Below, in pieces: positions 5,499-26,928 of a stretch of DNA of 64,000 nucleotides. Within the stretch, counting starts at the first letter, position 1. The number at the start of each line of letters is the position of its first letter. The notes below the pieces were generated by a model. That model searched no databases, was not told the origin of the DNA, and was given only the letters and a program-made list of their open reading frames with translations. This stretch comes from Bacteroidales bacterium. Its GTDB lineage: Bacteria; Bacteroidota; Bacteroidia; Bacteroidales; UBA932. The stretch lies in assembly GCA_017626555.1 (NCBI GenBank), contig JAGAIM010000049.1, positions 32,028 through 96,027 of the forward strand, given 5' to 3'. Made by a program: the position numbers and the translations under genes.

Positions 5499-5530
5499 TT
5501 TGGAATTCTTCTATCAAGTTGATATATTTG
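5499..5530 (+). promoter_or_regulatory. Bacteroidota-type promoter of peptide cassette A
   Basis: TTTG at 5499-5502 and TATATTTG at 5523-5530 are separated by 20 bases, matching the primary sigma factor promoter of Bacteroidota. The peptide start codon is 38 bases downstream. Confidence 0.75.
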
Positions 5531-5568
5531 TGAGTCATTACATAATTGATAATCAAACATCTGCAGAT

Positions 5569-5715
5569 ATGAAGAAAATTATTACCGGAATGAACCAATA
5601 CGAAAGTCCGGAAATTGTCCTGGAGGCAATTGAAAATGAGGGCTTCCTTTGCGCAAGCGGAAGCCACGAATCTCTGACTGAAGATGATAGTTGGGGTGAA
5701 CTTTTGGAGGACTAG
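5569..5715 (+). CDS. Small acidic peptide A (YESP...EGFLCAS family)
   Basis: 48 residues, starting at the ATG of MKKIITGMNQ; an upstream in-frame start would run through the promoter, so this ATG is preferred. Residues 11-30 read YESPEIVLEAIENEGFLCAS, which aligns without gaps to the core of two other small proteins in this window (21243-21395 and 24300-24455): Y-E-[ST]-P at the start and E-G-x-L-C-x-S at the end. The tail is acidic with one Trp (EDDSWGELLED). There is no signal peptide and no membrane helix. The stop is only 6 bp before the next lipoprotein gene, so the two are probably cotranscribed. Short proteins of this look occur in Bacteroidales genomes as hypotheticals; I know of no assigned function. 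Confidence 0.75.
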   Translation: MKKIITGMNQYESPEIVLEAIENEGFLCASGSHESLTEDDSWGELLED

Positions 5716-5721
5716 ATTATT

Positions 5722-8475
5722 ATGAAAAGTTTAGGAAAAATCATACTGATGATTACAGCAGTTGTAATCTCAGTTTCCTGTGTGGAAGATATTGCAGACG
5801 GCACTAATGATCAGCCACAGAAGAGCGATCCTGTCGAGATGACTTTCAATGCATCCTTTGCCGATACCAGGACAACTCTTATTAACGGAGTTGATGTCTG
5901 GTGGGAGCCGGGGGATCTCATTACCATTAACGGAGATTCTTTTTTTGCTGATATAAAGGAGACAGGTCCCTCTGCGGAATTCAAAGGTGAGACAACTCCT
6001 GCTACAGAGTATAGTGCGGCGTATCTCTCCTGTCCATACGAGTGGCGTGACGGCGACTGCTATTTTAATTTCTCCTGGTGGCAATTGGCTGTAAAGAATC
6101 AACTTCCTTGTTTGGTTTCAGCCGCTAAATGTTCAGGTAACGATAAAAGTTTGCGTTTCAAGAGCCTTTTGGGATATGTCAAATTCACAGTTACAGAGAA
6201 ATTTTTACCGAATCGTCTGGATATAACCGCAAATGGAGGAGAATACCTCACTTTGGCTTTGGCGAAGATTGATTTTTCCGGAGATGAGCCTGTTCTTGTC
6301 GATGTTGAAGATGAATATCCGAAAGAGGTATGTTTGTATTCTGACACCGCTTTGGAGCCAGGAGATTATTATGTCGCTCTTAACCCTGGGACATTCTCAA
6401 GGGGATTGACTTTTACTTTTAGCACGGTTGACGGGAAGATGGTGATAAAGTCGATTAATCAGGAGATAACTCTTGAAAGGGGAGTGATAAAGAATATCGG
6501 AGAGATATCGGAGCCTGAAGGATTGCAGGATCAACTTGAAGCGGAACGTGAAGCATTGATGGATTTTTACAATGCTACGGGCGGAGATAATTGGGACGAT
6601 AACACGAATTGGGGTTCAGACAAACCGGTAAGCGAATGGTATGGCGTTTCTGTTGATGGAATGGGTTGTGTTACCGAACTGATTTTTTACGGTAATAATC
6701 TTGTATGTGCCGATGACTTACCGGCCTCTATGACGAATTTGAAAAAACTTCGCACATTGATACTGCTCGAGGGTGATTATCAGAAAATACCTGAAGTGAT
6801 CAGAAACATCGGGTCGCTTGAGTATTTCAGCATATCTGGCGGAGCCTATACTCCTCTGGAATGCGTTATACCGGATTGGATCGGTGAACTGACGAATCTG
6901 AATACGCTAGGATTGTCCGGAGATTTCCCTGCTATTCCTGATGAGATCACCAATCTGACTAATCTTACATCATTGGGAATATCAGGTCCTTGGACTGTAG
7001 GAGGTGATCTTGGAGGTAAACTTCCTGATCTGAGCAATCTTAATAAACTCAAATCATTGTCAATAATTTATTATAAACTTGACATAGAAATTCCAGATTG
7101 GATTTATGATATGACTTCGTTGGAATCCTTGATTCTGAATAATATAGGATTGAGAGGAGAGATATCGGAAAAAATATCAAATCTGAAAAACCTCCAGAAT
7201 CTTGGCTTGCAGACAAATAAACTCGAAGGCAGAATCCCGGACGGGATAACGGAACTTACGAATCTGAACTGGTTGCAACTTCAGGAAAACAATCTGACAG
7301 GAAATGTGCCGGATGGTTTTTCAAACCTCAAGAATCTTATGACCCTTTGGTTATACGGAAACAGGTTGTCAGGTCGTCTTCCGGAGGATTTCGAGAAGAA
7401 TCCTAACTATGATTTATGGGGCGTCGATCAGAATGTTCTGCTCCAACAGAGCGGATATGGGCTGGTGCCGTTTTCTGATATTTACGAGTCGTCCGATTAT
7501 TCTAAGGATGGAGAAGTGATGGTTCTTCAGGAGGCGAAGGTTACAAATGGCGTTGATATCGTGCTTCTGGGTGATGGTTTTGTTGATAAGGATATGAGCA
7601 AGGACGGCAAATTCGAGCAGGCTATGAACGAGGCTTTGGAGTATCTGTTCAATCTGGAGCCTATGAAGACATATCGTGATTATTTCAATGTGTATGCAGT
7701 TAAAGCGGTATCGAAGAATGATAGATTCACAGAAGGATGCCATACTGCTTTTGAATCATTCTTCGGTGAGCCTCCAGCAGTGAGCGGAAATGATTCCAAA
7801 GTGATTGAATATGCTTTAAAGACTCCAGTGAAATCAGTAGATGACCTTACGGTAGCAGTAATACTGAACTCTAATGTCTATGCGGGAATGACATCAATGA
7901 ATATGACTGATAATTCCGCTATAGCCTATGTGGGAATGGCTCGTGACGCCTATGGAGCGTATCCTAATTCCTTTGAGGCGACCTTTACTCACGAAGTGGT
8001 TGGTCACGCTTTGGCTAAACTTGGTGATGAATATGTATATAGGAATGAGGCATATCCGTTGGCAGGAGATATTGAGTGGAGAAACGAAGCGTGGGTGAAG
8101 ACAGGTTATTCAGCAAACCTCGACCTGACTTCCGATCCTGATCAGATAAGATGGGCTCATATGCTGAAGGATGAAAGATATTCCACATATACCGGAATTG
8201 TCGAGGGTGGAGACTATTATTCATACGGAATATGGCGTCCGGAGGAGAATAGTATGATGCGTAATAATGACCCTTATTTCAATGCGCCTTCAAGAGAAGC
8301 GATAGTCAAAAGGATAATGGAACTTGCTGGAGAGGAATTCACTTTCGAGAAGTTTGCCCAGAAGGATGTTTATAGTCCGTTGCCTTACACAAGATCGAAC
8401 TATGTGGAAAGGACGTTCGAACATACTCCTCCACCGGTGATAATCAACGGTTCCTGGAGGGATGCCGTAAAGTAA
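5722..8475 (+). CDS. Lipoprotein with fimbrillin-like, LRR and M64 metallopeptidase domains
   Basis: 917 residues. The lipobox VISVSC gives a lipidated Cys at about residue 20, so it is membrane-anchored and probably surface-exposed. Residues about 35-260 resemble the N-terminal part of fimbrillin-like lipoproteins, with the T[RK]T ... W..GD signature (TRTTLING, WWEPGD). Residues about 275-560 form a plant-type leucine-rich repeat region (FYNATGGDNW cap, then L..L.L..N.L.G.IP repeats). Residues about 600-900 match peptidase family M64: HEVVGHALAKLGDEY at about 757-771 carries the zinc ligands. The spacing is HExxxH; I recall this longer spacing in Bacteroides M64 proteins but cannot verify it here. 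M64 includes clostridial IgA peptidase, so cleavage of a host glycoprotein is possible; the substrate is unknown. It follows peptide A by 6 bp. Confidence 0.85.
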   Translation: MKSLGKIILMITAVVISVSCVEDIADGTNDQPQKSDPVEMTFNASFADTRTTLINGVDVWWEPGDLITINGDSFFADIKETGPSAEFKGETTPATEYSAAYLSCPYEWRDGDCYFNFSWWQLAVKNQLPCLVSAAKCSGNDKSLRFKSLLGYVKFTVTEKFLPNRLDITANGGEYLTLALAKIDFSGDEPVLVDVEDEYPKEVCLYSDTALEPGDYYVALNPGTFSRGLTFTFSTVDGKMVIKSINQEITLERGVIKNIGEISEPEGLQDQLEAEREALMDFYNATGGDNWDDNTNWGSDKPVSEWYGVSVDGMGCVTELIFYGNNLVCADDLPASMTNLKKLRTLILLEGDYQKIPEVIRNIGSLEYFSISGGAYTPLECVIPDWIGELTNLNTLGLSGDFPAIPDEITNLTNLTSLGISGPWTVGGDLGGKLPDLSNLNKLKSLSIIYYKLDIEIPDWIYDMTSLESLILNNIGLRGEISEKISNLKNLQNLGLQTNKLEGRIPDGITELTNLNWLQLQENNLTGNVPDGFSNLKNLMTLWLYGNRLSGRLPEDFEKNPNYDLWGVDQNVLLQQSGYGLVPFSDIYESSDYSKDGEVMVLQEAKVTNGVDIVLLGDGFVDKDMSKDGKFEQAMNEALEYLFNLEPMKTYRDYFNVYAVKAVSKNDRFTEGCHTAFESFFGEPPAVSGNDSKVIEYALKTPVKSVDDLTVAVILNSNVYAGMTSMNMTDNSAIAYVGMARDAYGAYPNSFEATFTHEVVGHALAKLGDEYVYRNEAYPLAGDIEWRNEAWVKTGYSANLDLTSDPDQIRWAHMLKDERYSTYTGIVEGGDYYSYGIWRPEENSMMRNNDPYFNAPSREAIVKRIMELAGEEFTFEKFAQKDVYSPLPYTRSNYVERTFEHTPPPVIINGSWRDAVK

Positions 8476-8477
8476 AT

Positions 8478-9164
8478 TCAGGCTAACAAGTCATATATGC
8501 GGACGGTTTCGCGATACACTGCGGAGTCGTCCGCTATTATTTCCTGGAGGGCGTTGAGGCGTGCCGCGTTGTCGCTCCAAGGGATCCATAGTTTAAGATA
8601 GCCTCCACGTCCGTATTTTTCACGCAGATGCTCCACCGCTCTTTTGATGTGAGCCTCCCGCTCTAGTGAAGGGTAGTGGGTGAATCCGAACTGTATTGTA
8701 CGTCGTATGATTGTCTCTCCGTCAATGACTCTGTCCGCTTCGGCGACGATCTTGCCATAAATGCTCCTTGGGTCGGATTTGCCCGATGCCCGGTGGTCTT
8801 CGGCAGCCTGGGCTATAGTCTCGATCTGCCCGGCGGAGAACCATTCGGTAAGACGTGAGTCGTTCCGTATGATCTGCCCCGAGTCCAGATGATGCCTGTC
8901 CCTGCCGTTCACAAGTCCGAGGTCGTGGCAGGCTGCTGCTGCAAAAAGAACCTCCCGGTCGATATCTTCCATCCATAAAGCGGCTGTCTCTGCGCTCTGG
9001 GACGAACGCCAGGGCACAAGACCGTCCATAAGGCGCATCGCCTGGTCAATTACTGTGATGGCGTGGTCTTCTCTGTGTGCAGGATCGAATCCTGCATATT
9101 CCGGTACTATTCTGCCATAGATATAATCGAGCAGGCCGGATCTGATATCCTTGTATTGTTCCAT
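8478..9164 (-). CDS. HD-domain phosphohydrolase
   Basis: 228 residues, cytoplasmic. The metal-binding HD signature is visible as AHREDHA near residue 29 and CHDLG near residue 104, with further His and Asp residues (DRHHLDSG, AEDHRASG, VAEADRVID). HD proteins of this type hydrolyse nucleotides or other phosphoesters; the substrate cannot be told. It is the last gene of the minus-strand unit miaB-glpK-glpF-cls-HD, starting 2 bp after the cls stop, so it is almost certainly cotranscribed with cls. Confidence 0.85.
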   Translation of the reverse strand: MEQYKDIRSGLLDYIYGRIVPEYAGFDPAHREDHAITVIDQAMRLMDGLVPWRSSQSAETAALWMEDIDREVLFAAAACHDLGLVNGRDRHHLDSGQIIRNDSRLTEWFSAGQIETIAQAAEDHRASGKSDPRSIYGKIVAEADRVIDGETIIRRTIQFGFTHYPSLEREAHIKRAVEHLREKYGRGGYLKLWIPWSDNAARLNALQEIIADDSAVYRETVRIYDLLA

Positions 9165-9166
9165 AA

Positions 9167-10597
9167 TTATAGAAGAGGTGCGAACAGACGCATAATGGCT
9201 TGGATTATCTTATCATACCAAGGGCGTTTTTCCCATTGTGGCAGAGTCACTTCGTTACATTCCTTCAGGTCTGCCATAAAGATCCTGTAGTTCTCCCTGG
9301 CAATATCTTCATTGTATATGTATGCGTTGATCTCGTAACTCAGTTCCATACTTCTGCAGTCCATATTTGCTGAACCTATGATGGAAAGATAATCATCCGA
9401 AACCATTGTCTTGGAATGAATGAATTTGCCACCCTTTTCAAAGACCCTGATTCCCGCCTCAAGACAGTCGCGGTAGAAGGATTTGTTTGCCGGTCCCATA
9501 AAGAACAGATCGGCTTTTTTCGGAACCATCAGCCTTACGTCACAACCTTTGAATGCAGCAGATTTCAGAGCCATAAGAAGTGGCTCAGGAGGCACGAAGT
9601 ACGGTGTCTGGATATATAGGTATCTCTCGGCGTGGTGGGCTGTCCACAATGCTCCCAGATGCAGTATCGGGAATTCCCTGTCCGGCTCATCTGGAATGAT
9701 CTGGACAAGTTTGTCGTCGTGAATCTGCCTGTCCATAGGGAAGAATTCAGAAAAATCACCGTCGATCTTTCCTCCGGATGTGATCCAGGAATTGAGAAAA
9801 CAATACTGCAGTGTGGCGACGGCATTGCCGGTGATGCGGGTGTGAGTGTCGCGCCATCGGAAGAAATAGTCGTCTCCGATGTTCATTCCTCCCGTGTATC
9901 CGACCTTTCCGTCGATAACCACTATCTTGCGGTGATCGCGATAGTTGAATTTAGAGAGCAGGAATGCATTAGGGTTGGTGAATTTCACCACTTCCACTCC
10001 GGCCTCTTTCATTTCATTGTAATAACCGGGCCAGATGGTGATGTTCGCTATGTTCTCGTGGATGAACCTCACCTTGACACCTTCCCGTGCCTTCTGCATA
10101 AGGAGATTCTTTATCCTGCGGCTTCCATCATCCTTGAGAAAATAGAAATATTCGAAATGAATATGGTGCTTTGCAGCAAGCAGATCATTAATCAGGGCTT
10201 CCAGTTTTCTTCCGCCTGAAGTGATGATCTCCAGTTCGTTGTTGTCAGTGACTGTAAGGCCGCTGTCTTTCTTCAGAAGTCGGCTCAGACTTTGGTATTC
10301 CGGCCTTATCTCTTTCTCGTATTCTCCCCCGAACAGCAGATTCCTGGTGTGTTCGTTTGCCTTCTCCTCGAATATGTCCAGAAAATCTTTGTTCCTGTAT
10401 TGGAAGAATCCGGGCTTGCGGAAATTCATTCCGAAAACAATATAGAGCAGCAGTCCGATGACAGGCAATATGCCGATAATCAGGATCCAGGCCACCTTTC
10501 TGCCTGAATCCTGATTGTCATTCAATATCACCAGAATGGCTCCTATTATCAGAAACGCTCCGATAACGGATACCGTTATGGACATTATACCGGTCAT
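9167..10597 (-). CDS. cls: Cardiolipin synthase (phospholipase D family)
   Basis: 476 residues. Two hydrophobic N-terminal helices with the PLDc_N motif are followed by two HKD catalytic motifs: HRKIVVIDGKVGYTGGMN in the first half and HSKTMVSDDYLSIIGSAN in the second. The enzyme joins phosphatidylglycerol molecules into cardiolipin and releases glycerol in the membrane. It lies 6 bp downstream of glpF. That placement suggests coupling of glycerol handling to phospholipid synthesis; it is inferred from gene order only. Confidence 0.95.
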   Translation of the reverse strand: MTGIMSITVSVIGAFLIIGAILVILNDNQDSGRKVAWILIIGILPVIGLLLYIVFGMNFRKPGFFQYRNKDFLDIFEEKANEHTRNLLFGGEYEKEIRPEYQSLSRLLKKDSGLTVTDNNELEIITSGGRKLEALINDLLAAKHHIHFEYFYFLKDDGSRRIKNLLMQKAREGVKVRFIHENIANITIWPGYYNEMKEAGVEVVKFTNPNAFLLSKFNYRDHRKIVVIDGKVGYTGGMNIGDDYFFRWRDTHTRITGNAVATLQYCFLNSWITSGGKIDGDFSEFFPMDRQIHDDKLVQIIPDEPDREFPILHLGALWTAHHAERYLYIQTPYFVPPEPLLMALKSAAFKGCDVRLMVPKKADLFFMGPANKSFYRDCLEAGIRVFEKGGKFIHSKTMVSDDYLSIIGSANMDCRSMELSYEINAYIYNEDIARENYRIFMADLKECNEVTLPQWEKRPWYDKIIQAIMRLFAPLL

Positions 10598-10603
10598 TTT
10601 CTA

Positions 10604-11356
10604 TCAATACAGTGCGATATATGTCAATGCTGCAAGAACCGCACCTGCTATAGGACCTGCCACAGGAACCCAACTGTAGCCCCATCCGCTGCTTCCCTTG
10701 CCTTTCATAGGAAGTATAGCGTGTGCAAGACGTGGTGAAAGGTCTCTTGCCGGATTGAGGGCATATCCTGTAGTTCCTCCCAATGACATACCGATTGCCA
10801 TTATGAGGCAGGTTACCGGAATCGCTCCGAGTTCTCCCATACCAATGTGAAGGTGATAGCCTTCAGCGTCGAGTGTAGGCACATTTGCATCCACTCCGAA
10901 CACGAGGATTACGAACACGAGAAGCCAGGTGGCTACAGTCTCGCAGAAGAAGTTGCGGATCTGGTGCCCCTCGATGGCCGGCATAGTGCAGAATGTACCG
11001 AGTTTGGTGGCAGGATCTTCAGTGATGTCATAATGATCTTTATAGAAAAGCCATACAAGGACTGCTCCTGCGAATCCTCCGAGCATCTGGGCTATTATGT
11101 AGCCTGGAACAGCACTCCACGCCATTGTACCGGCCATAGCGCATCCTATGCTGACTGCAGGATTGAGATGTGCTCCGGAAACAGATCCGGCGATGAATAC
11201 TCCCACCATTACGGCGAAGCCCCATCCCATTGCTATCACGATCCAGCCGGCTCCCTTGGCCTTGCTCTTGTTCAGACTTGTTGCGGCGCAGACTCCGTCG
11301 CCAAGGAGTATCAGCACCATAGTGCCGATGAACTCGAAAAGGTATTTTTCAAACAT
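10604..11356 (-). CDS. glpF: Glycerol uptake facilitator (MIP/aquaglyceroporin)
   Basis: 250 residues with six predicted helices and both pore signatures: HLNPAVSIG in the first half and LNPARDLSPR in the second. The Asp after the second NPAR is typical of glycerol channels rather than water channels. The protein allows glycerol to cross the inner membrane. It starts 7 bp after the glpK stop, in one transcription unit with the kinase that traps glycerol as glycerol 3-phosphate. Confidence 0.95.
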   Translation of the reverse strand: MFEKYLFEFIGTMVLILLGDGVCAATSLNKSKAKGAGWIVIAMGWGFAVMVGVFIAGSVSGAHLNPAVSIGCAMAGTMAWSAVPGYIIAQMLGGFAGAVLVWLFYKDHYDITEDPATKLGTFCTMPAIEGHQIRNFFCETVATWLLVFVILVFGVDANVPTLDAEGYHLHIGMGELGAIPVTCLIMAIGMSLGGTTGYALNPARDLSPRLAHAILPMKGKGSSGWGYSWVPVAGPIAGAVLAALTYIALY

Positions 11357-11363
11357 ATCAGTG

Positions 11364-12851
11364 TTATTTTGTTGTCAGTGTCCTGCCTATTGCTTCAGAC
11401 CATCCCTGCTTGAGGCTCTCTACCTGCTGTTGCGATGCCTCAGGCTTGAATTCCATCTCCACACCCCACTGGCTCTTAATATGGTCGATGCTTTCCCAGT
11501 AGCCTACGGCGAGTCCTGCGAGATATGCCGCACCGAGTGCTGTCGTCTCAGTTACTATAGGCCTGATTACGGATGTCCCCAGAATATCGGCCTGGAACTG
11601 CATCAGGAGATTGTTGCGTGATGCACCTCCATCGACCTTGAGTTCCTTTAATGTGCATCCTGCATCCTTCTGCATAGCATTGACTATATCCATAGTCTGG
11701 AATGCAATGCCTTCGAGTGCAGCACGTGCAATATGAGCGGCAGTCGTTCCGCGGCTTATGCCATAGATGCTACCCTTGGCATACTGATCCCAATGCGGTG
11801 CTCCCAGCCCTGTAAGTGCAGGGACGAAATATACGCCTCCATTGTCCGGAACACTGGAAGCAAGCGCTTCCACCTCTGAAGATGAACGTATTATCCCCAG
11901 GCCGTCACGTAGCCATTGCACCACTGAACCAGCCACGAAAATGCTGCCTTCGAGAGCATAATTCACCTTGTCTCCGATCTTCCAGGCAATAGTCGTAAGA
12001 AGATTGTTGGATGACATTATAGGCCTCTCTCCGCTGTTCATAAGCATAAAGCAACCTGTACCGTATGTGTTCTTTACTGATCCAGGTTCTGTACACATCT
12101 GTCCGAAGAGTGCAGCCTGCTGGTCGCCAGCGATGCCGGCGATAGGGACTTCGTGTGCGAAAAGAGTGGTTTTGGTATAGCCGTATATCTCACTCGATGA
12201 CTTCACCTCAGGCATCATCGACTCCGGAATATCTAAAAGACGGAGAAGTTCCTTGTCCCATTCGAGGGTGTGGATGTTGAAAAGCATTGTCCTTGATGCA
12301 TTTGTCACATCGGTCACGTGAACCTCTCCACGAGTGAGCATCCAGATCAGCCAGGTATCGACGGTGCCGAATCTCAGTTTTCCCTCATCGGCCTTGCGGC
12401 GTGCTCCAGGCACGTTTTCCAATATCCATAAGATTTTGGTCGCACTGAAATATGCATCGATGATGAGTCCGGTCTTGCTGCGGATCAGGTCTGTCCTTCC
12501 GTCCCTTTTGAGACTGTCGCATAACTCTGATGTCCTGCGGTCCTGCCATACGATTGCATTATAGACAGGCTCACCGGTCTCAGCATCCCAGACAATGGTG
12601 GTCTCACGCTGATTGGTGATGCCGATTGCGGCAATGTTCAGGCCGTTGATGTCAATGGATGTGATGGCCTCGGCTATCACGGATGCCTGTGAGGACCATA
12701 TTTCCATAGGGTTATGCTCCACCCAGCCCGGCTTAGGGAATATCTGGGTGAACTCTTTCTGTGACACAGCCTTTGTCTGGCCGTATTCGTCGAATACTAT
12801 TGCCCTCGAACTGCTCGTTCCCTGGTCAAGGGCGAGAATGTACTTCTCCAT
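11364..12851 (-). CDS. glpK: Glycerol kinase
   Basis: 495 residues, the usual length. The FGGY-family ATPase start is [16 protein letters not shown], and the C-terminal part has [18 protein letters not shown], the second nucleotide/substrate signature. It phosphorylates glycerol to sn-glycerol 3-phosphate with ATP in the cytoplasm. It begins 40 bp after the miaB stop; I see no clear TAnnTTTG box in that gap, so it may be transcribed from the miaB promoter. Confidence 0.96.
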
Positions 12852-12891
12852 AATTATGTGGTTATTGGTCTGTCTTTATTACTGAAGCCGA

Positions 12892-14247: not shown

Positions 14248-14272
14248 ATAGTCGTGTTTTTACAGTAGGATA

Positions 14273-14309
14273 CAAAGATAGGATTTTTCGTCGAATATAG
14301 TTATCTTTG
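14273..14309. promoter_or_regulatory. Divergent -7 elements between miaB and the LEA-like lipoprotein gene
   Basis: TATCTTTG lies on the plus strand at 14302-14309 and again on the minus strand at 14280-14273, so the two -7 boxes form an inverted pair 21 bases apart. No good TTG box is visible for either. The plus-strand box is very close to the ATG at 14323. Confidence 0.5.
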
Positions 14310-14322
14310 CGAAGAGGTAAAA

Positions 14323-18433: not shown

Positions 18434-18448
18434 ATCCTTTTTCTGCAA

Positions 18449-18891: not shown

Positions 18892-18944
18892 AAAAAAAGC
18901 CCCGAACTGATGTTCGAGACTTTTTAGGGTGCCCAGTGGGATTC
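18892..18944 (-). repeat. Copy of the tRNA-His 3' end plus terminator (53-bp direct repeat, distal copy)
   Basis: These 53 bp are identical to 19007-19059. On the minus strand they contain the last 16 or so bases of tRNA-His from the T-loop (GAATCCCACTGGGCACC) and its terminator hairpin. This copy has no tRNA body. The repeats are 115 bp apart start to start. Confidence 0.9.
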
Positions 18945-19006
18945 TTCCGCTACGCTCCAGCGACTTCGTCGATGACGAACCCTGTGGGTTCTCACCCACC
19001 GGTCAC

Positions 19007-19040
19007 AAAAAAAGCCCCGAACTGATGTTCGAGACTTTTT
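19007..19040 (-). terminator. Intrinsic terminator of tRNA-His
   Basis: On the minus strand GTCTCGAAC, loop ATCA, GTTCGGGGC form a 9-bp stem with wobble pairs, followed by a run of seven T. The same structure is repeated at 18892-18925. Confidence 0.85.
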
Positions 19041-19059
19041 AGGGTGCCCAGTGGGATTC
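19007..19059 (-). repeat. 53-bp direct repeat, copy inside tRNA-His
   Basis: This copy covers the real 3' end of tRNA-His and the terminator next to it. It is identical base for base to 18892-18944. A tRNA 3' end duplicated in direct orientation is the usual footprint of integrase-mediated insertion, though a local tandem duplication would look the same. Confidence 0.9.
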
Positions 19060-19117
19060 GAACCCACGACATTCAGAACCACAATCTGACGCTCTAACCA
19101 ACTGAACTATGGGCACC
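19043..19117 (-). tRNA. tRNA-His (GTG)
   Basis: The cloverleaf folds fully: acceptor GTGCCCA/TGGGCAC, D-arm with GTTCAGTTGGTTAGAGC, anticodon stem TCAGA/TCTGA around loop TTGTGGT with anticodon GTG, and T-arm GTGGG/CCCAC around TTCGAAT. The extra G at -1 (position 19117) opposite C73 (19043), diagnostic of tRNA-His, is present. The 3' CCA is not encoded. Confidence 0.97.
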
Positions 19118-19134
19118 ATATTGGATTAGGACTG

Positions 19135-19164
19135 CAAAGATATGTAAAATTTTCGAACCTGCAA
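19135..19164 (-). promoter_or_regulatory. Promoter of tRNA-His
   Basis: On the minus strand TTG (19164-19162), 19 bases, then TATCTTTG (19142-19135) lie just upstream of the tRNA, matching the Bacteroidota consensus. Confidence 0.75.
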
Positions 19165-19238
19165 TAAGGAATATGAATTTTTGTGTTTATTTGAGTGTCT
19201 TTTGCTAAAGTGTTAATTATATGTCAAGAAAAGTTTCA

Positions 19239-19246
19239 TATATTTG
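19239..19246 (+). promoter_or_regulatory. -7 element before the carboxyltransferase gene
   Basis: TATATTTG sits 29 bases before the ATG at 19276. No clear TTG partner is seen at the usual distance. It supports starting the gene at 19276, since the longer frame would begin upstream of the promoter. Confidence 0.5.
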
Positions 19247-19275
19247 TTGTCTATCAAATATATAAAATCGGTTTT

Positions 19276-21057
19276 ATGGGACGTGAAATTAAATTCTCTC
19301 TTGTTTACAGGGATATGTGGCAGTCATCAGGAAAATATGTTCCGACTGTCGCCCAACTGAAGGAAGTCGCTCCGGCAATCATAGAAATGGGCTGTTTCGA
19401 CCGTGTCGAGACTAACGGAGGCGCATTCGAACAGGTCAATCTTCTTTTTGGTGAGAATCCTAATAAGGCCGTGCGAGAATGGACAGCCCCTTTCCATAAG
19501 GCAGGGATACAGACCCATATGCTTGAAAGAGGCCTTAATGCGTTGAGGATGAATCCGGTACCGGCTGATGTGCGTGAACTTATGTACAAAGTCAAGAAGG
19601 CTCAGGGTACGGATATCTCCCGTTCTTTCTGCGGCCTCAACGATCACCGCAATCTCCGCCTCAGTGTTGAATACGCCAAAAAGGCCGGAATGATTTCGCA
19701 GGTTGCACTTTCCATCACTAATTCGCCTGTGCATACGGTAGAATATTATATGGGCGTGGTTGATCACGTTGTGGAGTATGGCTGTGACGAGATCTGTCTT
19801 AAGGATATGGCGGGAATCGGCCGCCCTTCCTTCCTGGCAGAACTCACTTCCCGGATCAAGAAGAAATATCCGCATATCAAGGTTCAGTATCACGGTCATT
19901 GCGGTCCTGGCTTCTCTCCGGCATCGATGCTGGAAGTGGCTCGTGCAGGTGCCGACTATCTTGATGTCGCTGTGGAACCTCTCTCCTGGGGAAAGGTTCA
20001 TCCGGATGTGATTACGATAAGAGAAATGCTGAAAGCAGACGGATTCCAGGTCAAGGATCTGAATATGAATGCCTATATGGACGTACGCGCCCTTACCCAG
20101 AAATTCATCGACGATTTTCTCGGATATTGGATCGATCCGAACAATTCTCAGATGAGTTCGCTGCTTGTGGGCTGCGGCCTTCCGGGAGGAATGATGGGCT
20201 CGATGATGGCTGACCTGAAAGGATTCCACGGAGCAATCAATTCTTCTTTACGTGCTCAAGGCAAGGCAGAACTGACTCTTGACCAATTGATGGTGATGCT
20301 CTTCCAGGAAGTTGAATATGTATGGCCTCGTCTGGGCTATCCGCCTCTCGTGACACCGTTCAGCCAGTATGTGAAGAACACGGCTCTGATGAACCTGATG
20401 GCTCTTCTCAAGGGACAGCCTCGCTGGACTACCATTGATAAGGACACCTGGAATATGATCCTGGGCAAGATGGGACGCCTCCCGGGAGAACTTGCGCCTG
20501 AGATCGTGGCTCTTGCCAAGGAAAAAGGACTCGAATTCTATACTGGCAATCCTCAGGATGCATTCCCGGACGAACTGGATAAATTCCGTGCGATGATGAA
20601 TGAGGAAGGCTGGGACTGCGGACCGGATGATGAGGAACTCTTTGAACTCGCTATGCACGAAAGACAATATCGTGACTACAAGAGCGGAGTGGCCAAGGAA
20701 CGCTTCAATAAGGATCTGGAGGCAGCAAGAGCAAAGGCCGGTGCTCCGATAGTCGTGACCCGTCCTGTGGTGGAGATGCCTAAGTATGACATTGACAGAT
20801 TGATGGAGAAATATCCGTCTGCACTTGCTGTGCAATCGCCGGTCAAGGGACAAATTATATGGCAATATGATGTCGAGGATGCTTCTACCGCACCTGCTGT
20901 CGGCACGGAGGTCACTGCAGGCACACCGGTATGTTACGTCCAGACATATTATGGTATAGAGGAAGTGCCGGCAGCCATAACCGGACGTATCGTGGCAGTA
21001 TGCTGCCGCCAGGGAGATAAAGTTGCCAAAGGAGAAATTCTGGCTCTGGTGCAGTAA
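19276..21057 (+). CDS. Pyruvate carboxylase subunit B / oxaloacetate decarboxylase alpha-like protein
   Basis: 593 residues from MGREIKFSLVYRDMWQSS. The carboxyltransferase TIM barrel is recognisable by YRDMWQSS at the start, CLKDMAG with the Lys that is carboxylated in the family, and the metal-site strand QYHGHCGPG. The C-terminal 80 residues have the biotinyl/lipoyl fold (SPVKGQI ... GTEVTAGTPV ... GRIVAVCCRQGDKVAKG). The hairpin that should hold the biotin lysine in EAMKM instead reads QTYYGIEEV at about residues 556-564, so the protein cannot be biotinylated in the usual way. It could act with a separate biotin carrier or have a changed role. No biotin carboxylase or membrane pump gene is adjacent. 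Confidence 0.8.
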   Translation: MGREIKFSLVYRDMWQSSGKYVPTVAQLKEVAPAIIEMGCFDRVETNGGAFEQVNLLFGENPNKAVREWTAPFHKAGIQTHMLERGLNALRMNPVPADVRELMYKVKKAQGTDISRSFCGLNDHRNLRLSVEYAKKAGMISQVALSITNSPVHTVEYYMGVVDHVVEYGCDEICLKDMAGIGRPSFLAELTSRIKKKYPHIKVQYHGHCGPGFSPASMLEVARAGADYLDVAVEPLSWGKVHPDVITIREMLKADGFQVKDLNMNAYMDVRALTQKFIDDFLGYWIDPNNSQMSSLLVGCGLPGGMMGSMMADLKGFHGAINSSLRAQGKAELTLDQLMVMLFQEVEYVWPRLGYPPLVTPFSQYVKNTALMNLMALLKGQPRWTTIDKDTWNMILGKMGRLPGELAPEIVALAKEKGLEFYTGNPQDAFPDELDKFRAMMNEEGWDCGPDDEELFELAMHERQYRDYKSGVAKERFNKDLEAARAKAGAPIVVTRPVVEMPKYDIDRLMEKYPSALAVQSPVKGQIIWQYDVEDASTAPAVGTEVTAGTPVCYVQTYYGIEEVPAAITGRIVAVCCRQGDKVAKGEILALVQ

Positions 21058-21091
21058 ATTTCATTCATTCCGGTCAGGAATAATCATAATC

Positions 21092-21133
21092 AACGGAAAT
21101 CACTTTTTGCAAGTGGTTTCCGTTTCTTTTGTT
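21092..21133 (+). terminator. Intrinsic terminator after the carboxyltransferase gene
   Basis: AACGGAAATCACTT, a 5-base loop and AAGTGGTTTCCGTT form a 14-bp stem with one wobble, followed by TCTTTTGTT. Confidence 0.85.
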
Positions 21134-21161
21134 AAATAAAATTAGATATAAGTTAAATTAA

Positions 21162-21192
21162 TTTGAGAAATGGTTAATTAAAACTATATTTG
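21162..21192 (+). promoter_or_regulatory. Bacteroidota-type promoter of peptide cassette B
   Basis: TTTG at 21162-21165 and TATATTTG at 21185-21192 with 19 bases between them. The peptide ATG is 50 bases downstream. Confidence 0.78.
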
Positions 21193-21242
21193 CCGTTTCT
21201 GGGAAATTTTTCGAAATCAAATATTATTTAACACTATTACTT

Positions 21243-21395
21243 ATGGAATTCAACAACAATTTGACTTGGGGGGGGCAACCCTATGAAACCCCATCTTTAA
21301 ACGTACTCGATGTTCAGGTCGAGGGAGTATTGTGTGAGAGTCTTACTTCTGATCCAGACGATTGGACTCCAGGAAATGATGGCTGGTTTGAATAA
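21243..21395 (+). CDS. Small acidic peptide B (YETP...EGVLCES family) with a G8 tract
   Basis: 50 residues, MEFNNNLTWGGQP followed by the core YETPSLNVLDVQVEGVLCES at residues 14-33. The core aligns without gaps to peptides A and C; LDVQVEG is identical to peptide C. The tail is acidic with two Trp (DDWTPGNDGWFE). It has no signal peptide or helix. A run of eight G (21268-21275) encodes Trp-Gly-Gly just before the core; gain or loss of one G would bring a stop within a few codons and remove the core. A lipoprotein gene starts 30 bp later, and the gap (GTTTAACTTTTAAAAGAGAA) resembles the one after peptide C. Function unknown. Confidence 0.78.
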   Translation: MEFNNNLTWGGQPYETPSLNVLDVQVEGVLCESLTSDPDDWTPGNDGWFE

Positions 21396-21425
21396 TCTGC
21401 TACGGGTTTAACTTTTAAAAGAGAA

Positions 21426-23459
21426 ATGATTATGAAGACAGGAAATAAACTCTTCTGGATGCTCGCTGCGTCTGTTCTTTCTTTTGCAGGATGCGAAATT
21501 GTTGAAGTTAAGGATGCCTTTATTCCAGAAACTGTTGGCTCGACATTCGAACTAGTGGCTGATATCGCTCAGACCAGGACTACTGTAGATCCTGAGGATG
21601 GTTATAAGGTTTCTTGGGAGGAAGGTGATGTGATCTATATGGTGACCGATGACGAAACTTGGGGAAAACCATATGAATCCAGTAGTGTGACGAATATTGA
21701 AACCATAGCAGAATTTGTTTATGGCGATGGCAAATTCACTACAGAGGCTACGATTGATGATGGAGAATATACATTCAACGCTATGTATTGTGCGGCAGAT
21801 AATAAGTCCTGGCACAGGGGAGCAGGGTCAACACATAAACTGAGTGCTGTTCAGAATCAGGATTGTACAAATCCTACTGCTCACATCAAGAATTATGATG
21901 CTCTTGTCGGAACCTTTACTACAACTCTTCCTGTAGAAAATCCACAGAGTGTTGCGATGCATCATATCTATACATTGATGCAGGTGAATGTCGTTAATAA
22001 TACAGGAGCGGCAATCGAAGTTGCAAAGTTTGAGATGACAGTGGGAGGTGCAGATCTTGTTGGAATATTTAATGTTGACGATTTTGCTACTTCAGCGACC
22101 TCTGTGAAGACAGGATATGGTGAGACCATAACAGTCAATGTAAGCAATGGAACAGTCTCAGCCGATGAATCTCTCCCAATTTATTTCGTAGTATCTCCAT
22201 TTACATCCGATGCTGAAAAAGGCATTACCTTTAAAGTTACCGATGCTTCTGGTAATACCTACACAAAGACTGTAAATAAAGCCATCACATTCTCAGCAGG
22301 AACTTATAATACTACTCCATATACTATCACTAAGGCCGACGAAGTGGAAGAAATTGATTATTCGGGAAAATTCGCTGCAGTTGTTTGTAAATCAAATGAA
22401 TATGTTTATTTGACAACCAATGCAAGTGGGAAAAGATTGGCGACAGATGCTTCTGGGGTTTCAAACATTACAGACTATTCGACTACGCTCACTGATTTTA
22501 AGCGAGTTTCACCTGAATATATTTGGTCAATTAATAAGATTGAAGGTTCGTCTTACTATACTATGTGTGCTAATTCTTTATATATAAAAAAGGTTACTAC
22601 GTCTAGTAATTATGCATATACAGATGAGTCGGAAGAAAATGCGGAACCTGTAAAAATTACTTACAATGCAGAGAAAAAGTGCTACATGATAGAAAGCACA
22701 ACTAGTGGTTATGCTGGAAGAAAACTAGCAGTGAATACGACTGAGGCGTATTATGCATTCTATGGAAGTACAACAACGATGCTTACTGATATTATTCTTA
22801 TTCCATATGAAGAAGATACCACTCCAATATTGTCAGTTCCATCTAATATACAATCTGTTGTAGATCAGCAAACAAAAACAATCACAATAACTTGGGATGC
22901 CGTTCCTAATGCTTCAAAGTATGTTGTATTATGTGATGATCTAAAATCTGAGGTCAATGAATCGCAATGCGTCATTAATGTAGCGGAATATGGAATGTAT
23001 ACTGTTACTATAGAGGCCTTTGCTGAAGGATATTACTCTTCTAAATCAGATCCTATTAATGTGGAGGTAGTTGACCCCTCTGTATCTACAACAACGGTTA
23101 CATTTAGCTGTAATGACAGTGATTTTGTTGCAGATACAGATTGTATAAAGGCTACAAATGGTGTAATAATTGTTACTCAAGAAAAGGCAAAAGGGTCAAG
23201 TTTTGATACTAAATATTTAAATCCATTACGATTTTATGCGGCTAATACACTAACTATATCAGGAGCTGTAATAACAAAAATTGAAATTGGGTTTAATGGA
23301 ACTTATAAAGGAGACAATCTAATTAGTGATGTTGGTAGTTTTAATGGGACAATATGGGTTCCAACTGAAAATAATGAATCTGAGACTGTAGTTCTGACAA
23401 ATAATGGAAACTCTCAGACTCGTATAGATTCTATAACTATTACTTATAAAAATAAATAG
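21426..23459 (+). CDS. Fimbrillin-like lipoprotein with C-terminal beta-sandwich domains
   Basis: 677 residues (ATG 21426, or ATG 21432 two codons on). Lipobox LSFAGC places the lipidated Cys near residue 23. The N-terminal third matches the other fimbrillin-like lipoproteins here (TRTTVDPEDG, VSWEEGDVI, AMHHIYTLMQVNV). Residues about 310-460 are of unknown type; about 475-560 look like a fibronectin-III-type domain (ITWDAVPNASKYVV); and the last 120 residues form a beta-rich domain (FYAANTLTISGAVITKIEIG) often seen at the end of Bacteroidales surface lipoproteins. From about 22380 on, the DNA is clearly richer in A/T than the first third, which hints at a mosaic gene. It lacks a nuclease domain, unlike its downstream relatives. 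Confidence 0.8.
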   Translation: MIMKTGNKLFWMLAASVLSFAGCEIVEVKDAFIPETVGSTFELVADIAQTRTTVDPEDGYKVSWEEGDVIYMVTDDETWGKPYESSSVTNIETIAEFVYGDGKFTTEATIDDGEYTFNAMYCAADNKSWHRGAGSTHKLSAVQNQDCTNPTAHIKNYDALVGTFTTTLPVENPQSVAMHHIYTLMQVNVVNNTGAAIEVAKFEMTVGGADLVGIFNVDDFATSATSVKTGYGETITVNVSNGTVSADESLPIYFVVSPFTSDAEKGITFKVTDASGNTYTKTVNKAITFSAGTYNTTPYTITKADEVEEIDYSGKFAAVVCKSNEYVYLTTNASGKRLATDASGVSNITDYSTTLTDFKRVSPEYIWSINKIEGSSYYTMCANSLYIKKVTTSSNYAYTDESEENAEPVKITYNAEKKCYMIESTTSGYAGRKLAVNTTEAYYAFYGSTTTMLTDIILIPYEEDTTPILSVPSNIQSVVDQQTKTITITWDAVPNASKYVVLCDDLKSEVNESQCVINVAEYGMYTVTIEAFAEGYYSSKSDPINVEVVDPSVSTTTVTFSCNDSDFVADTDCIKATNGVIIVTQEKAKGSSFDTKYLNPLRFYAANTLTISGAVITKIEIGFNGTYKGDNLISDVGSFNGTIWVPTENNESETVVLTNNGNSQTRIDSITITYKNK

Positions 23460-23826
23460 TTTAAAATTAATGATTGAATAACTTTTGTGAAAGAATTGAG
23501 AGTAAGATAGTTTTCTATGTGGGAGGGGAAAGGATATGCGCAGACAATCAGGAAATGACACCTTGGCTGTTTTGGGGCTAGGGAATGGCCAAGGTGTAAC
23601 GAAAAAGTGCTCGTGAAGCGTCTTTTCAGCACATCTTGGACGGTTTTGTGTCAATTTCTGTCCAAGATGTCTGATTCGGGCTTGTTCTGATCTGTGATTT
23701 GGACTTGTTCCGATTTGTGATCTAGTTCTGGTGAATGTTGTGTGCGGAAAGTTCACTGGAACTGCCGGATTCTGCCCTTGAAGTCGTGATTCGGGAGGTT
23801 CTGGTGAAGTTCTGGCTGCCAGGATT

Positions 23827-23874
23827 CACTAGAACCTTCGCTAGAACCTTCACTAGAACCTTTGCTAGAACCCT
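23827..23874. repeat. Four tandem 12-bp units (CACTAGAACCTT type)
   Basis: Units CACTAGAACCTT, CGCTAGAACCTT, CACTAGAACCTT and TGCTAGAACCCT follow each other directly. The inverse of the unit occurs just upstream as AGGTTCTGGTGAA, so the region can form hairpins. Confidence 0.8.
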
Positions 23875-23950
23875 TGAAGAGAGACTGTATGAAGGAGACT
23901 GTTTGACGAATATGTTTATATCGGAGGCGCTTTTTGTTGAGACGGCCAGC

Positions 23951-24031
23951 GTCGCCGGAATATACGACCTCCGGCGACTACAGATCAAGCGCTGCGGGTC
24001 GGCTCGGCCAAAGGGCCGTCCTCGCGCTTGA
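23951..24031. repeat. Pair of GC-rich hairpins
   Basis: GTCGCCGGA (23951-23959) pairs with TCCGGCGAC (23970-23978). Six bases later TCAAGCGC (23985-23992) pairs with GCGCTTGA (24024-24031), enclosing an inner CGGCC-AAAG-GGCCG hairpin. It is much richer in G/C than its surroundings and resembles a repetitive extragenic palindrome. Confidence 0.65.
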
Positions 24032-24246
24032 CTGTTGTCCTCCTATCGCACGAATTGTTCTTCATTGAGTTTGGGCGCGGATAATCGGAGTCAACCTGAA
24101 TCAGGAAATGACAGTTCCGATCTGTGATCTGGTTCTGGTGAATGTTGTGTGCGGATATTCATTTGATTTTTATGAAAAACCAACAACTTATTCCACAGAG
24201 TTGCTGAAAATTCTGTACAACTCTATGATAAGCGAAATAAAAATTC

Positions 24247-24254
24247 TAACTTTG
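24247..24254 (+). promoter_or_regulatory. -7 element of peptide cassette C
   Basis: TAACTTTG lies 45 bases before the peptide ATG, a leader length close to that of cassette B. No convincing TTG box is seen upstream. Confidence 0.5.
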
Positions 24255-24299
24255 TGGAATATCACATTTCGACACAGATTCTAGTAACAATAATTAATT

Positions 24300-24455
24300 A
24301 TGACACTTAAACATTTTGATTTATCTCAGAAGGGTTTTTCATACGAGACACCTTCTGTAAGCATTCTCGATGTTCAGGTCGAGGGAATGCTCTGCGAAAG
24401 CGGAATCAGCATCAATGATTGGGAGAACGATGAAGAACTCCTTGATTTTGACTAA
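24300..24455 (+). CDS. Small acidic peptide C (YETP...EGMLCES family)
   Basis: 51 residues, MTLKHFDLSQKGFS followed by the core YETPSVSILDVQVEGMLCES at residues 15-34, aligning without gaps to peptides A and B. The tail is acidic with one Trp (NDWENDEELLDFD). No signal peptide or membrane helix is seen. At the DNA level the stretch for LDVQVEG is almost identical to that of peptide B (CTCGATGTTCAGGTCGAGGG), so B and C are recent relatives. A lipoprotein gene begins 28 bp after its stop. Function unknown. Confidence 0.78.
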   Translation: MTLKHFDLSQKGFSYETPSVSILDVQVEGMLCESGISINDWENDEELLDFD

Positions 24456-24483
24456 AAGTTTAACTCCTTAAAGAAAAGTAACG

Positions 24484-26928
24484 ATGAAAAAGATTTTATT
24501 CGCAATGGGAGTTATGCTGGCAGCCACATTTACTCTCACAAACTGTACAAAGGAACTTCAGAATCCTCAGGACGTAAAGACTCCTTACACTATTTATGCA
24601 AACACAGCAGAGACCAAGACTGCAAACGACGGCCTTTCAACTGTATGGGTTGAAGGCGATGCTCTTAACGTTTTCGCTACTGCTGCAGGTTCGACCGAAT
24701 ATGGAACCAGTTCGAAGTTTACTCTTACAGATGCCGCTTCAGGAAAGTTCGAGACCGATGATCTCAAGGCTGAATTGGCAGCGACCAATGACTGGTATGC
24801 ACTTTATCCATATAGCCAGTATGTAACAACTCCAGCAAGTACAGATGCCGGATATATCTATTTCGGCAATAAAAACGGTCTGACTCAGGAAGAGTATAAC
24901 AGCACAAGCCATCTGTCTGGCAGCACTTGTCCTCTTTACGGAGTGGCTGAAGCCGTTGCCGGCACTGAACTTCCTGCAATTGAAATGCAGCATCTTACTT
25001 CTGTTGTGAAGATCAATGTAACTAATGGAACATCTTCGACATTCGCTATCAAGGATCTTTCATTCACATCTTCAGCAGGTGACATTGTCGGACACTATTT
25101 CGTTGATTTTACACAGGATGCTCCGGTGTTGACACCAAGAACAGGCAATGTATCAAACACGGCATCGCTGACAGTCACAAATCCATCTGACCTTGCTCCA
25201 AGTCAGACTGCTTCATTCTATATCGTAGTAAGACCTTTCACTGCTCCTGCAAATTCTACTCTTACCATCAAGATCGGAAGTGTGGAGAAGACAAAGACTC
25301 TTGCTGAAGAAGTGGTGTTTGCTGCCGGAAAGATCAAAGGTATAAATTATACTCTTAAAGAGGTACCAGTGGAAGTTCCTCCTACAAAGGCAACTGTTGA
25401 AGATTTCCTCGCTGCAGCGGAAGATGATACCTGGTATGAACTTACAGGTACTATTTCAAATCTCACTAATACTACATTCGGAAACTTTGACCTTACAGAT
25501 GCTACAGGAAAAGTATATGTTTATGGCCTGACAAAGACAAAGGTTGCTTCTAACGACAGGTCTTTTGCTTCTATTGGTCTCAAGGAAGGTGATGTGGTGA
25601 CTCTGATCGGAAAGAGGTCTTCTCACAATGGCACACCTCAGGTAGGCGGCCCTGCATATTATGTAAGTCACGTTGCAGGTGAAGAGCCTGAACCAGAGCC
25701 AGGAACAGGTGAACTTACTCATCCGCTTACAAGTAACCTAGTGTGGACACTGGGCGCAAAGGCTTATGAGTCAACTGTTGCTGTAAACGGAAATGAAGCG
25801 GTTGCGGCTTTAAAACTTGGAACAGGCAGTCTGGTTGGAAATGCTACAATTACTATTCCTGCAGGAACGACTAAGGTAGGATTCTATGGTGTAGCCTGGA
25901 ATGGCGCTAAGGGAACGATTACCGCTTCGGCTGAACTCGCAAATGGTGTGTTCTATTCTCAGGATCTTACTGCAAATGCAGGTGCTTCGGGAAGTACATC
26001 TAATTATACAATGACAGCATCTGATTCCGACTATTATGAAATCGATGTGGTGTCAATTCTTGGAGCCGCGGCACCATCAGATATTCCTGTAACAATTTCT
26101 ACAGTAGAGGGAGCGCTGAGAGCGATCATCTGGGGTCTTAACTATTATACTGCTTCCGGAATCGGTGCTGACCAGTCAGGTTCAGAGCCAGAACCAGAAC
26201 CAGAGCCAGAACCAGAACCAACTCCAGGTGCACCGGCATCTCTGATTACTGCGACTGTTGCAGAATTCCTCGCAGCTGCTGAAAGCACTGATACTTGGTA
26301 TAAACTTACAGGTGAGATTGTTAGCATTGCAAAGGCAGATTATGGTAATTTCACAATCAAGGACGAGACCGATGAGGTTTACATTTATGGTATGACAAAT
26401 GGCTGGGTCGGATCAAATGACCAATCTTTCTCAGCAATAGGACTGAAGGTTGGCGATATCGTGACTCTCGGAACACTCAGAGGCTCACATAATGGTACTC
26501 CTCAGGGAGGTGGAAATACTGTTCCGGCATATTATATAAGTCACGTGGAAGGTGAAACTCCAGAGGTGACCGTTGAAGGCTCTGGTACAGAGGCAGACCC
26601 ATATACTGTTGCCGATGTAATTGCTTTGCATAATTCAGGAGCCGCTCCGGCTGATGCTGTTTGGATTGAAGGTGATATTGTCGGTTATTATAATAGTAAT
26701 ACCAGCAAGTTCTGTGCAGGAACAGATGGAGCGGTTGCTTCAAATCTTGCTCTCGGAACCTCTGATGTAAATATTCCAGTACAATTGCCATCTGGAAATA
26801 TTCGTAAGGCATTGAACCTTCTTGATAATCCGGGGAATCTTGGGAAAACAGTGGCTATATGCGGAAAGATTCAAGCATACTTCTCTGTTGCCGGAATTAA
26901 GTCTCCAACAGATTACAAACTGAACTGA
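24484..26928 (+). CDS. Fimbrillin-like lipoprotein with repeated OB-fold domains
   Basis: 814 residues. Lipobox FTLTNC gives a Cys near residue 21. The N-terminal third is fimbrillin-like (TKTANDG, TVWVEGDAL, EMQHLTSVVKINV). It is followed by an OB-fold-like domain (FLAAAEDDTWYELTGTI ... HNGTPQ) at about 295-400, a beta domain, an acidic Pro-Glu linker (EPEPEPEPEPEP), a second copy of the OB-fold (FLAAAESTDTWYKLTGEI ... HNGTPQ) at about 588-700, and a third OB-like segment ending SPTDYKLN. The TGA at 26926-26928 is followed in the same frame by a Gly/Pro linker and a nuclease domain (next entry). Similar OB-fold parts are found with secreted Bacteroidales nucleases. It is 28 bp after peptide C. 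Confidence 0.82.
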   Translation: MKKILFAMGVMLAATFTLTNCTKELQNPQDVKTPYTIYANTAETKTANDGLSTVWVEGDALNVFATAAGSTEYGTSSKFTLTDAASGKFETDDLKAELAATNDWYALYPYSQYVTTPASTDAGYIYFGNKNGLTQEEYNSTSHLSGSTCPLYGVAEAVAGTELPAIEMQHLTSVVKINVTNGTSSTFAIKDLSFTSSAGDIVGHYFVDFTQDAPVLTPRTGNVSNTASLTVTNPSDLAPSQTASFYIVVRPFTAPANSTLTIKIGSVEKTKTLAEEVVFAAGKIKGINYTLKEVPVEVPPTKATVEDFLAAAEDDTWYELTGTISNLTNTTFGNFDLTDATGKVYVYGLTKTKVASNDRSFASIGLKEGDVVTLIGKRSSHNGTPQVGGPAYYVSHVAGEEPEPEPGTGELTHPLTSNLVWTLGAKAYESTVAVNGNEAVAALKLGTGSLVGNATITIPAGTTKVGFYGVAWNGAKGTITASAELANGVFYSQDLTANAGASGSTSNYTMTASDSDYYEIDVVSILGAAAPSDIPVTISTVEGALRAIIWGLNYYTASGIGADQSGSEPEPEPEPEPEPTPGAPASLITATVAEFLAAAESTDTWYKLTGEIVSIAKADYGNFTIKDETDEVYIYGMTNGWVGSNDQSFSAIGLKVGDIVTLGTLRGSHNGTPQGGGNTVPAYYISHVEGETPEVTVEGSGTEADPYTVADVIALHNSGAAPADAVWIEGDIVGYYNSNTSKFCAGTDGAVASNLALGTSDVNIPVQLPSGNIRKALNLLDNPGNLGKTVAICGKIQAYFSVAGIKSPTDYKLN

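Follow-up and report, generated by a model that had tools for sequence, protein, structure and literature searches.

Putative precursor peptides encoded beside surface-protein genes of Bacteroidales co-occur with genes for a PqqD-like protein, a kinase, a protease and an exporter

Introduction

The phosphorylated lasso peptide clusters (paeninodin, pseudomycoidin and Bradymonas bsf; genes A, B1, B2, C, D, K and N) are the closest described counterparts of the gene system reported here, which comprises a family of very small peptide genes and a set of enzyme genes, called the machine below. The peptide genes were recognised in 64,000 nt of DNA from a Bacteroidales bacterium (GTDB UBA932; assembly GCA_017626555.1, contig JAGAIM010000049.1, positions 32,028 to 96,027 of the forward strand), hereafter the window. 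According to the available part of PMC10368454, the RREs of lasso systems (recognition elements of ribosomally synthesised and post-translationally modified peptides, RiPPs) bind YxxPxL leaders and accelerate the kinase. Lasso kinases phosphorylate Ser residues; the phosphoserine then receives hexoses through a nucleotidyltransferase homologue (PMC9266682, available part).

With these clusters, the system shares a YxxP leader, a discrete PqqD-like RRE, a His-Lys-Asp-Asp kinase, an ATP-binding cassette (ABC) exporter and, at some loci, a nucleotidyltransferase (PF14907). The machine differs by a signal-peptidase-like protease and by the absence of B2; furthermore, many precursors are encoded away from the enzymes and are paired with surface-protein genes. 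The transglutaminase-like leader peptidase B2 (PF13471) exceeded the cut-off in none of ten machine-bearing genomes (weak sub-threshold matches in two), hence a lasso system proper was excluded. An Asn-synthetase-like cyclase (C) was not recognised by eye in the machine loci viewed, for which no profile search was made.

Two further systems are similar in part. The kinase of the genome containing the window (own genome) weakly matches ScmC of the SynChlorMet cassette and HprK-related kinase A (HprK_rel_A, NCBIfam), and its PqqD weakly matches ScmD, all far below the curated cut-offs. The SynChlorMet cassette contains radical S-adenosylmethionine (SAM) genes; none were recognised in the machine loci viewed. 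The surface proteins recall the Type V (FimA/Mfa) fimbrillin-like lipoproteins of Bacteroidales, but they continue into enzymatic or binding passenger domains and have a precursor peptide encoded in front of them.

In its available part, a survey of RiPPs in Bacteroidales is built around radical SAM enzymes and GG-leader transporters; the present gene set is not described there (PMC10352776). In a survey of rumen bacteriocins, lasso clusters were counted by PF13471 plus the cyclase, and a separate RRE-containing class of the same survey may include loci such as these (PMC13289728, available part). PqqD, HPr-kinase and nucleotidyltransferase genes are listed for many rumen genomes in the part of PMC7533575 at hand, and discrete RREs may belong to uncharacterised RiPP classes according to the accessible text of the RRE-Finder paper (PMC7470986). 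Neither the peptide family nor its pairing with surface proteins was found described in the open-access papers searched.

We propose a trans-acting, RiPP-like pathway with the peptides as its precursors: one machine would mature and export them all, and the products would partner the co-encoded surface proteins. The probability of this reading is estimated at roughly 0.7.

Results

Three cassettes were found in the window (ORF, open reading frame; LRR, leucine-rich repeats):

5523-5530, + strand: TAnnTTTG promoter element of cassette 1, read in the sequence, 38 bp before the ATG
5569-5715, + strand: putative precursor peptide 1, 48 aa, YESP...EGFLCAS, acidic tail with W (ORF call, profile search)
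5722-8475, + strand: lipoprotein partner 1, fimbrillin-like N-domain, LRR and peptidase M64 domain (Pfam, fold of residues 1-300)
21185-21192, + strand: TAnnTTTG promoter element of cassette 2, read in the sequence, 50 bp before the ATG
21243-21395, + strand: putative precursor peptide 2, 50 aa, YETP...EGVLCES, acidic tail with W (ORF call, profile search)
21426-23459, + strand: lipoprotein partner 2, same N-domain family as partner 1, fn3-like region below cut-off
24247-24254, + strand: TAnnTTTG promoter element of cassette 3, read in the sequence, 45 bp before the ATG
24300-24455, + strand: putative precursor peptide 3, 51 aa, YETP...EGMLCES, acidic tail with W (ORF call, profile search)
24484-26928, + strand: lipoprotein partner 3, same N-domain family as partner 1, OB-like region below cut-off, DUF6359 at the C end
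27846-30095, + strand: further lipoprotein of the same N-domain family, DNA/RNA non-specific endonuclease domain, downstream of cassette 3 and without its own peptide

The first-pass annotation, which was made from the window alone, had described small genes of 48, 50 and 51 codons with these promoter elements and closely following lipoprotein genes. All of this was confirmed, the gaps between peptide and lipoprotein genes being 6, 30 and 28 bp (next genes at 5722, 21426 and 24484), and the gapless alignment of the three cores was reproduced.

A profile built from the three window peptides matched 14 places in the own genome at E ≤ 10. Twelve were small open frames (one without a start codon), and in all twelve the next gene encodes a lipoprotein; the remaining two (loci L015 and L017) lie in other frames or genes and were dropped before counting. 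With a later profile, 20 own-genome places were obtained at E ≤ 0.02. The first profile, which had been built from the own genome before PqqD was considered, gave 63 places in 19 genomes at E ≤ 0.01 when 59 genomes of the same GTDB family were searched.

The family has the architecture Y..P, 13 residues, [CA]xS and an acidic tail usually containing Trp. With the conserved Tyr as position 1, this Tyr and Pro 4 occur in all 71 aligned members. At position 6, 43 members have I/V/M/L and 15 have T; position 10 is Glu in 46, position 11 is V/I/L/F/M in 70, position 14 is Glu in 50 and position 17 is L/I/F in 65. Position 18 is Cys in 44 members and Ala in 22; thus, the Cys, thought invariant from the window, is neither invariant across the family nor essential. 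Ser occupies position 20 in 62 members, and positions 18 and 20 are both small residues in 63. The tail of about 18 residues has a net charge of ≤ -2 in 67 members and contains Trp in 52; tails vary strongly between copies and leaders are conserved. All these counts are partly circular since the members were picked by profile.

In eight of eight peptide pairs, the non-synonymous rate was lower than the synonymous rate (dN < dS; pooled pN 0.14, pS 0.41; pairs chosen for similarity, two of them with a member in common). The peptides are under purifying selection, and the use of substitution rates as a check for coding, which the first-pass annotation had put forward, gave a positive answer. One own-genome copy of 31 codons (L085, 2232-2324) has no start codon, an in-frame stop just 5' of the core and a lipoprotein gene directly downstream; it is likely decayed.

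No curated family of Pfam or NCBIfam was over its cut-off for the three window peptides or 57 family members. Three single sub-cut-off matches were obtained: to NF033524 (E 0.06) and NF033528 (E 0.08), both lasso-type precursors, and to PF19397 (E 0.04), presumably a lasso-linked family. The profile of the 71 peptides found no PDB sequence at E ≤ 10. The Y and P of the lasso-type leader motif YxxP(xL), as given in the available part of PMC10368454, are present throughout, and from their sequences the peptides look like leader-bearing precursors.

The Y..P motif and the weak match to lasso leaders suggested a leader that binds an RRE, and PqqD was therefore searched. A single PqqD gene of the own genome exceeded the Pfam cut-off (PF05402); it lies on contig C43, not on that of the window. 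The earlier remark that no modification enzyme lies nearby thus remains true of the cassettes, while candidate enzymes are encoded on a different contig. Within the family of 59 genomes, PqqD was found together with an HprK-like protein at 23 loci (in G044 on a separate contig), most of which also hold a signal-peptidase-like protease and an ABC exporter without a C39 domain; eight hold a nucleotidyltransferase gene. The HprK-like and the RRE-type PqqD genes mark the identical 23 genomes.

Ten proteins from three loci were compared with Pfam and NCBIfam: PqqD, ABC and PF14907 were over the Pfam cut-offs, and the kinase and the protease had weak matches or none. At E ≤ 0.1, the only PDB sequence match of the PqqD/RRE profile was TfuB1 (6jx3, E 6.6e-8), which we take to be the RRE of the lasso peptide fusilassin/fuscanodin. 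The catalytic motifs of the enzymes are intact. SM.P, HR and GDG are invariant in 23 protease sequences, presumably corresponding to the Ser-His-Asp set of SEC11-type signal peptidases, and PDB sequence matches are SpsB and SEC11C. In 22 kinase sequences, H144, K165, D184 and D185 are invariant and the motifs F.G.SG.GKST, NDD and G.PWSG are kept. The kinase model (predicted local distance difference test, pLDDT, 94.8) matched PEPCK (E 4e-8) and HprK/P (E 2e-5) in Foldseek, with template modelling scores (TM-scores) of about 0.5 and 0.3. The four invariant residues would be the His-Lys-Asp-Asp of lasso kinases (PMC9266682, available part).

A scan of GTDB with the kinase profile returned at least 302 relatives, of which the best 80 loci were taken (Bacteroidales and four Fibrobacter-labelled contigs). 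The fetched flanks contain the protease in 74, PqqD in 66, the exporter in 47 (strict threshold) and the nucleotidyltransferase in 19.

The Fibrobacter-labelled contigs (L221, L249, L254 and L266) carry kinase and protease genes, L221 and L254 also PqqD, and L249 and L266 also precursor-like peptides; this may reflect true transfer or mis-binning. A second, distinct family of short PqqD proteins (MQ[KR]YFVP...) was seen in G017, G019 and G038 (L139, L144 and L142). It was excluded when co-occurrence was counted: the sequence is different, and these three genomes yielded no HprK-like gene.

Peptides and machine co-occur. Among the 59 family genomes, 21 have both, two only the machine, three only peptides and 33 neither (Fisher's exact test, P 8e-11), and collapsing to 25 genera gave 11, 1, 0 and 13, respectively (P 3e-6). 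The first profile gave 16, 7, 3 and 33 (P 1e-6). G021 (E 0.014) was not scored as peptide-positive. Of the two genomes with only the machine, G030 has a stop inside pqqD, a split nucleotidyltransferase gene (L162) and no peptide match, and its machine at L162 is, judged by these reading frames, decayed. In the other, G058, inspection by eye revealed a divergent peptide next to a lipoprotein gene, at a distance of about 5.5 kb from pqqD. At order level (149 genomes), peptides with E ≤ 0.01 were found in seven genomes, all among the ten with strong PqqD matches (≥ 70 bits; the lower 12 matches of 32-57 bits were not scored as strong).

In part of the genomes, peptide and machine genes are physically linked. 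At seven of the 23 loci in the family, a peptide lies within 5 kb of the machine (P about 4e-7 when a rough mean density of peptides is assumed); outside the family the distances are 1.3 kb in G076 and 3.5 kb in G170. Among the best 80 of the at least 302 kinase loci, 16 peptides reach ≥ 15 bits in 14 loci, and reversed ORFs reach at most 7.3 bits; 19 peptides are found at ≥ 8 bits. At L249, L266 and L231 (14 bits), the peptide gene is directly 5' of the nucleotidyltransferase gene of the cluster.

Most of the peptide genes examined have a surface-protein or secreted-protein gene as their neighbour. Of the 63 family places, 60 have the start of a lipobox-bearing gene within 400 nt downstream, and 57 have it within 60 nt; one of the three misses has a plain signal peptide in the next gene. 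The identical procedure, applied to 668 other small ORFs of related genomes, gave 25 within 400 nt and four within 60 nt. Thus, the enrichment beside lipoprotein genes that the first-pass annotation had asked about is present (60/63 vs 25/668). By a looser test, 36 of 250 longer ORFs in such regions have a lipobox. In the own genome, the N-domain family of the cassette partners has 24 matches, 22 of which had a locus taken for the upstream check; a peptide gene is located just upstream of 17, and at least two of the other five closely follow an upstream gene. One partner was modelled: behind the lipobox, residues 33-268 of partner 1 adopt a two-domain fimbrillin beta-sandwich fold. The N-domain profile had no PDB sequence match at E ≤ 1, and Mfa_like_1 (Pfam, E ≤ 1) matches only one of 13 N-domains.

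In G168 and several other genomes, gene order is reversed and the partner class is changed; the leader is kept. In G168, 16 of 19 peptides (11 by pattern and five by eye; one spurious place, L338 71697, had been removed from 20) follow genes for secreted proteins with a shared C-terminal motif. Within the 80-locus kinase set, eight of the 19 peptides precede a lipoprotein gene and six others follow a gene with the G168-type C-terminal motif (four by a looser pattern, two by eye).

At L200, L203, L340 and further loci of G168, many peptide tails have an R...W.D/E..E-like end, and the C-terminal motif is common to their partner genes. The type IX secretion system (T9SS) type A sorting domain TIGR04183 was looked for in these partners: at E ≤ 1, five G168 partners had no match at the C end, where a divergent domain could escape, and a single mid-protein match (E 0.54).

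Alternatively, the peptide gene could be a leader ORF controlling the lipoprotein gene through attenuation or translational coupling; such an ORF would likewise be short and close to the next gene, with a promoter-like element in front, as some copies have. Of 81 peptides, 25 have TAnnTTTG 20-85 nt 5' of them (in the own genome, 9 of 15), and shuffles gave 3 on average. The element is only moderately specific since 7 of 52 control gene starts carry it as well. Regulation of this kind accounts neither for conservation at the amino-acid level with dN < dS nor for peptide genes that follow their partner gene in G168 and several other genomes, and it would not predict a co-occurring RRE, kinase and exporter. 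We regard it as highly improbable.

Further observations concern the cassettes of the window. The lipoprotein ORF of cassette 3 has its stop at 26926-26928, after which the frame stays open to 27834 and, read by eye, resembles a DNA/RNA endonuclease domain (RGHQIP); by this reading, 24484-27834 is probably an interrupted gene. A run of eight G at 21268-21275, close to the start of the coding sequence of peptide 2, is a possible slippage (phase-variation) tract. Between the gene of a GH2 (glycoside hydrolase family 2) beta-galactosidase and cassette 1, a perfect 15-nt inverted repeat with a 1-nt spacer is located at 5392-5422, of which no second copy exists in the window at ≤ 2 mismatches. Invertible promoters were considered and rejected, as the inverted repeats at the three cassettes have no common element by eye.

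Discussion

The components of a RiPP system in the broad sense (a precursor with a leader, a recognition protein, a modifying enzyme, a protease and an exporter) are present here as gene content and co-occurrence. In the proposed pathway, the N-terminal leader, Y..P.[often hydrophobic]...E[VIL], would pair with the discrete PqqD/RRE, which would present the precursor to the enzymes. The kinase with HprK/PEPCK fold would then phosphorylate a Ser or Thr, and the nucleotidyltransferase, where present, may add to the phosphate site. The Ser-His signal-peptidase-like protease would cleave near the small-x-small motif [CA]xS, and the tail, acidic, about 18 residues long and in most members with a Trp, would leave the cytoplasm through the ABC exporter without C39. 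Finally, and this is the weakest step, the mature peptide may act with the surface protein encoded alongside. This would explain the observed coupling of most precursor genes to a gene for a fimbrillin-like lipoprotein or, in other lineages, for a secreted protein with the shared C-terminal motif. Binding via Y..P, modification of the tail, cleavage and export are modelled on lasso systems. The maturation link is well supported by the genetics; the chemistry and the partner function we infer.

Several points weigh against this pathway. Concerning the association, permutation within genera is weak (P 0.03). The later profile (A5) includes peptides of machine-bearing genomes, one of them beside pqqD, and therefore favours such genomes. 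Three family genomes (G026, 73% complete, G033 and G051) have peptides and no machine was found in them, three order-level machine genomes (G108, G135 and G144) gave no peptide match, and in 66 of the 80 kinase loci no peptide of ≥ 15 bits is present in the fetched flanks. The 16-kb machine locus of the own genome contains none of that genome's 20 peptide places. The co-occurrence is partly shared ancestry. The peptides might then be unmodified cytoplasmic partners for assembly or export of the surface protein, with PqqD co-occurring as a by-product of shared ancestry or lifestyle; the frequent adjacency to surface-protein genes, the weak within-genus result and the three genomes with peptides only would fit. 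Such a role does not account for the association in collapsed genera and at order level, for the physical linkage, or for conserved residues that match a known RRE-binding leader motif, and other lineages reverse the gene order and change the partner class and yet keep the leader. We consider it improbable, a little more so than the bacteriocin alternative below.

A single peptide match in 11 of the 24 peptide-positive family genomes means that large peptide sets are not universal. This would also suit secreted bacteriocins or signalling peptides, which would use the same machine and act on other cells, the adjoining surface protein being a receptor or immunity protein; the machine resembles lasso tailoring and export genes, and tails differ strongly next to conserved leaders. 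On the other hand, up to about 20 different copies occur per genome (20 places in the own genome, 19 in G168), and they are tied to diverse enzyme- or adhesin-like passengers (peptidase M64, LRR, an endonuclease in the same protein family), not to one repeated immunity gene. A bacteriocin or signal is therefore unlikely.

The trans-acting maturation pathway itself meets further objections in its individual steps, since binding, modification, cleavage and export are proposed from the genes. The nucleotidyltransferase cannot be essential as it occurs in only eight of 23 family and 19 of 80 kinase loci, and none is seen in the 16-kb machine locus of the own genome. The cut site is a guess, small-x-small motifs being common: exact lasso spacing (Tyr at -17) would cut before position 18 and the -3/-1 rule of signal peptidases after position 20, a difference of three residues. 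Five of the 19 peptides in the 80-locus set have no recognised surface-protein partner. The first-pass annotation had suggested a common task for the peptides, which is supported in part; the putative partner role is read from gene order.

Many Bacteroidales of gut and rumen appear to produce very small peptides whose maturation and export probably depend on a single dedicated enzyme set encoded elsewhere in the genome. It is possible, and put forward tentatively, that in Bacteroidales (possibly also in Fibrobacter) a single machine of RRE, kinase, protease and exporter delivers up to about 20 phosphorylated acidic peptides per genome, each of which would be the private cofactor, anchor or assembly strand of the adjoining surface protein. 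RiPP chemistry would then equip the surface proteins of the cell itself instead of making a free natural product. As none of the own-genome peptide places lies in the machine locus, RiPP searches centred on enzymes would miss most precursors of such systems. An unannotated family of small proteins of gut and rumen bacteria is tied here to a defined enzyme set, by which a peptide family without a known function can be broken down into steps open to testing (RRE binding, phosphorylation, cleavage and export). Were the pairing with surface proteins functional, RiPP machinery would have a use not found described in the open-access papers searched, with consequences for the assembly or regulation of surface adhesins and enzymes in Bacteroidales.

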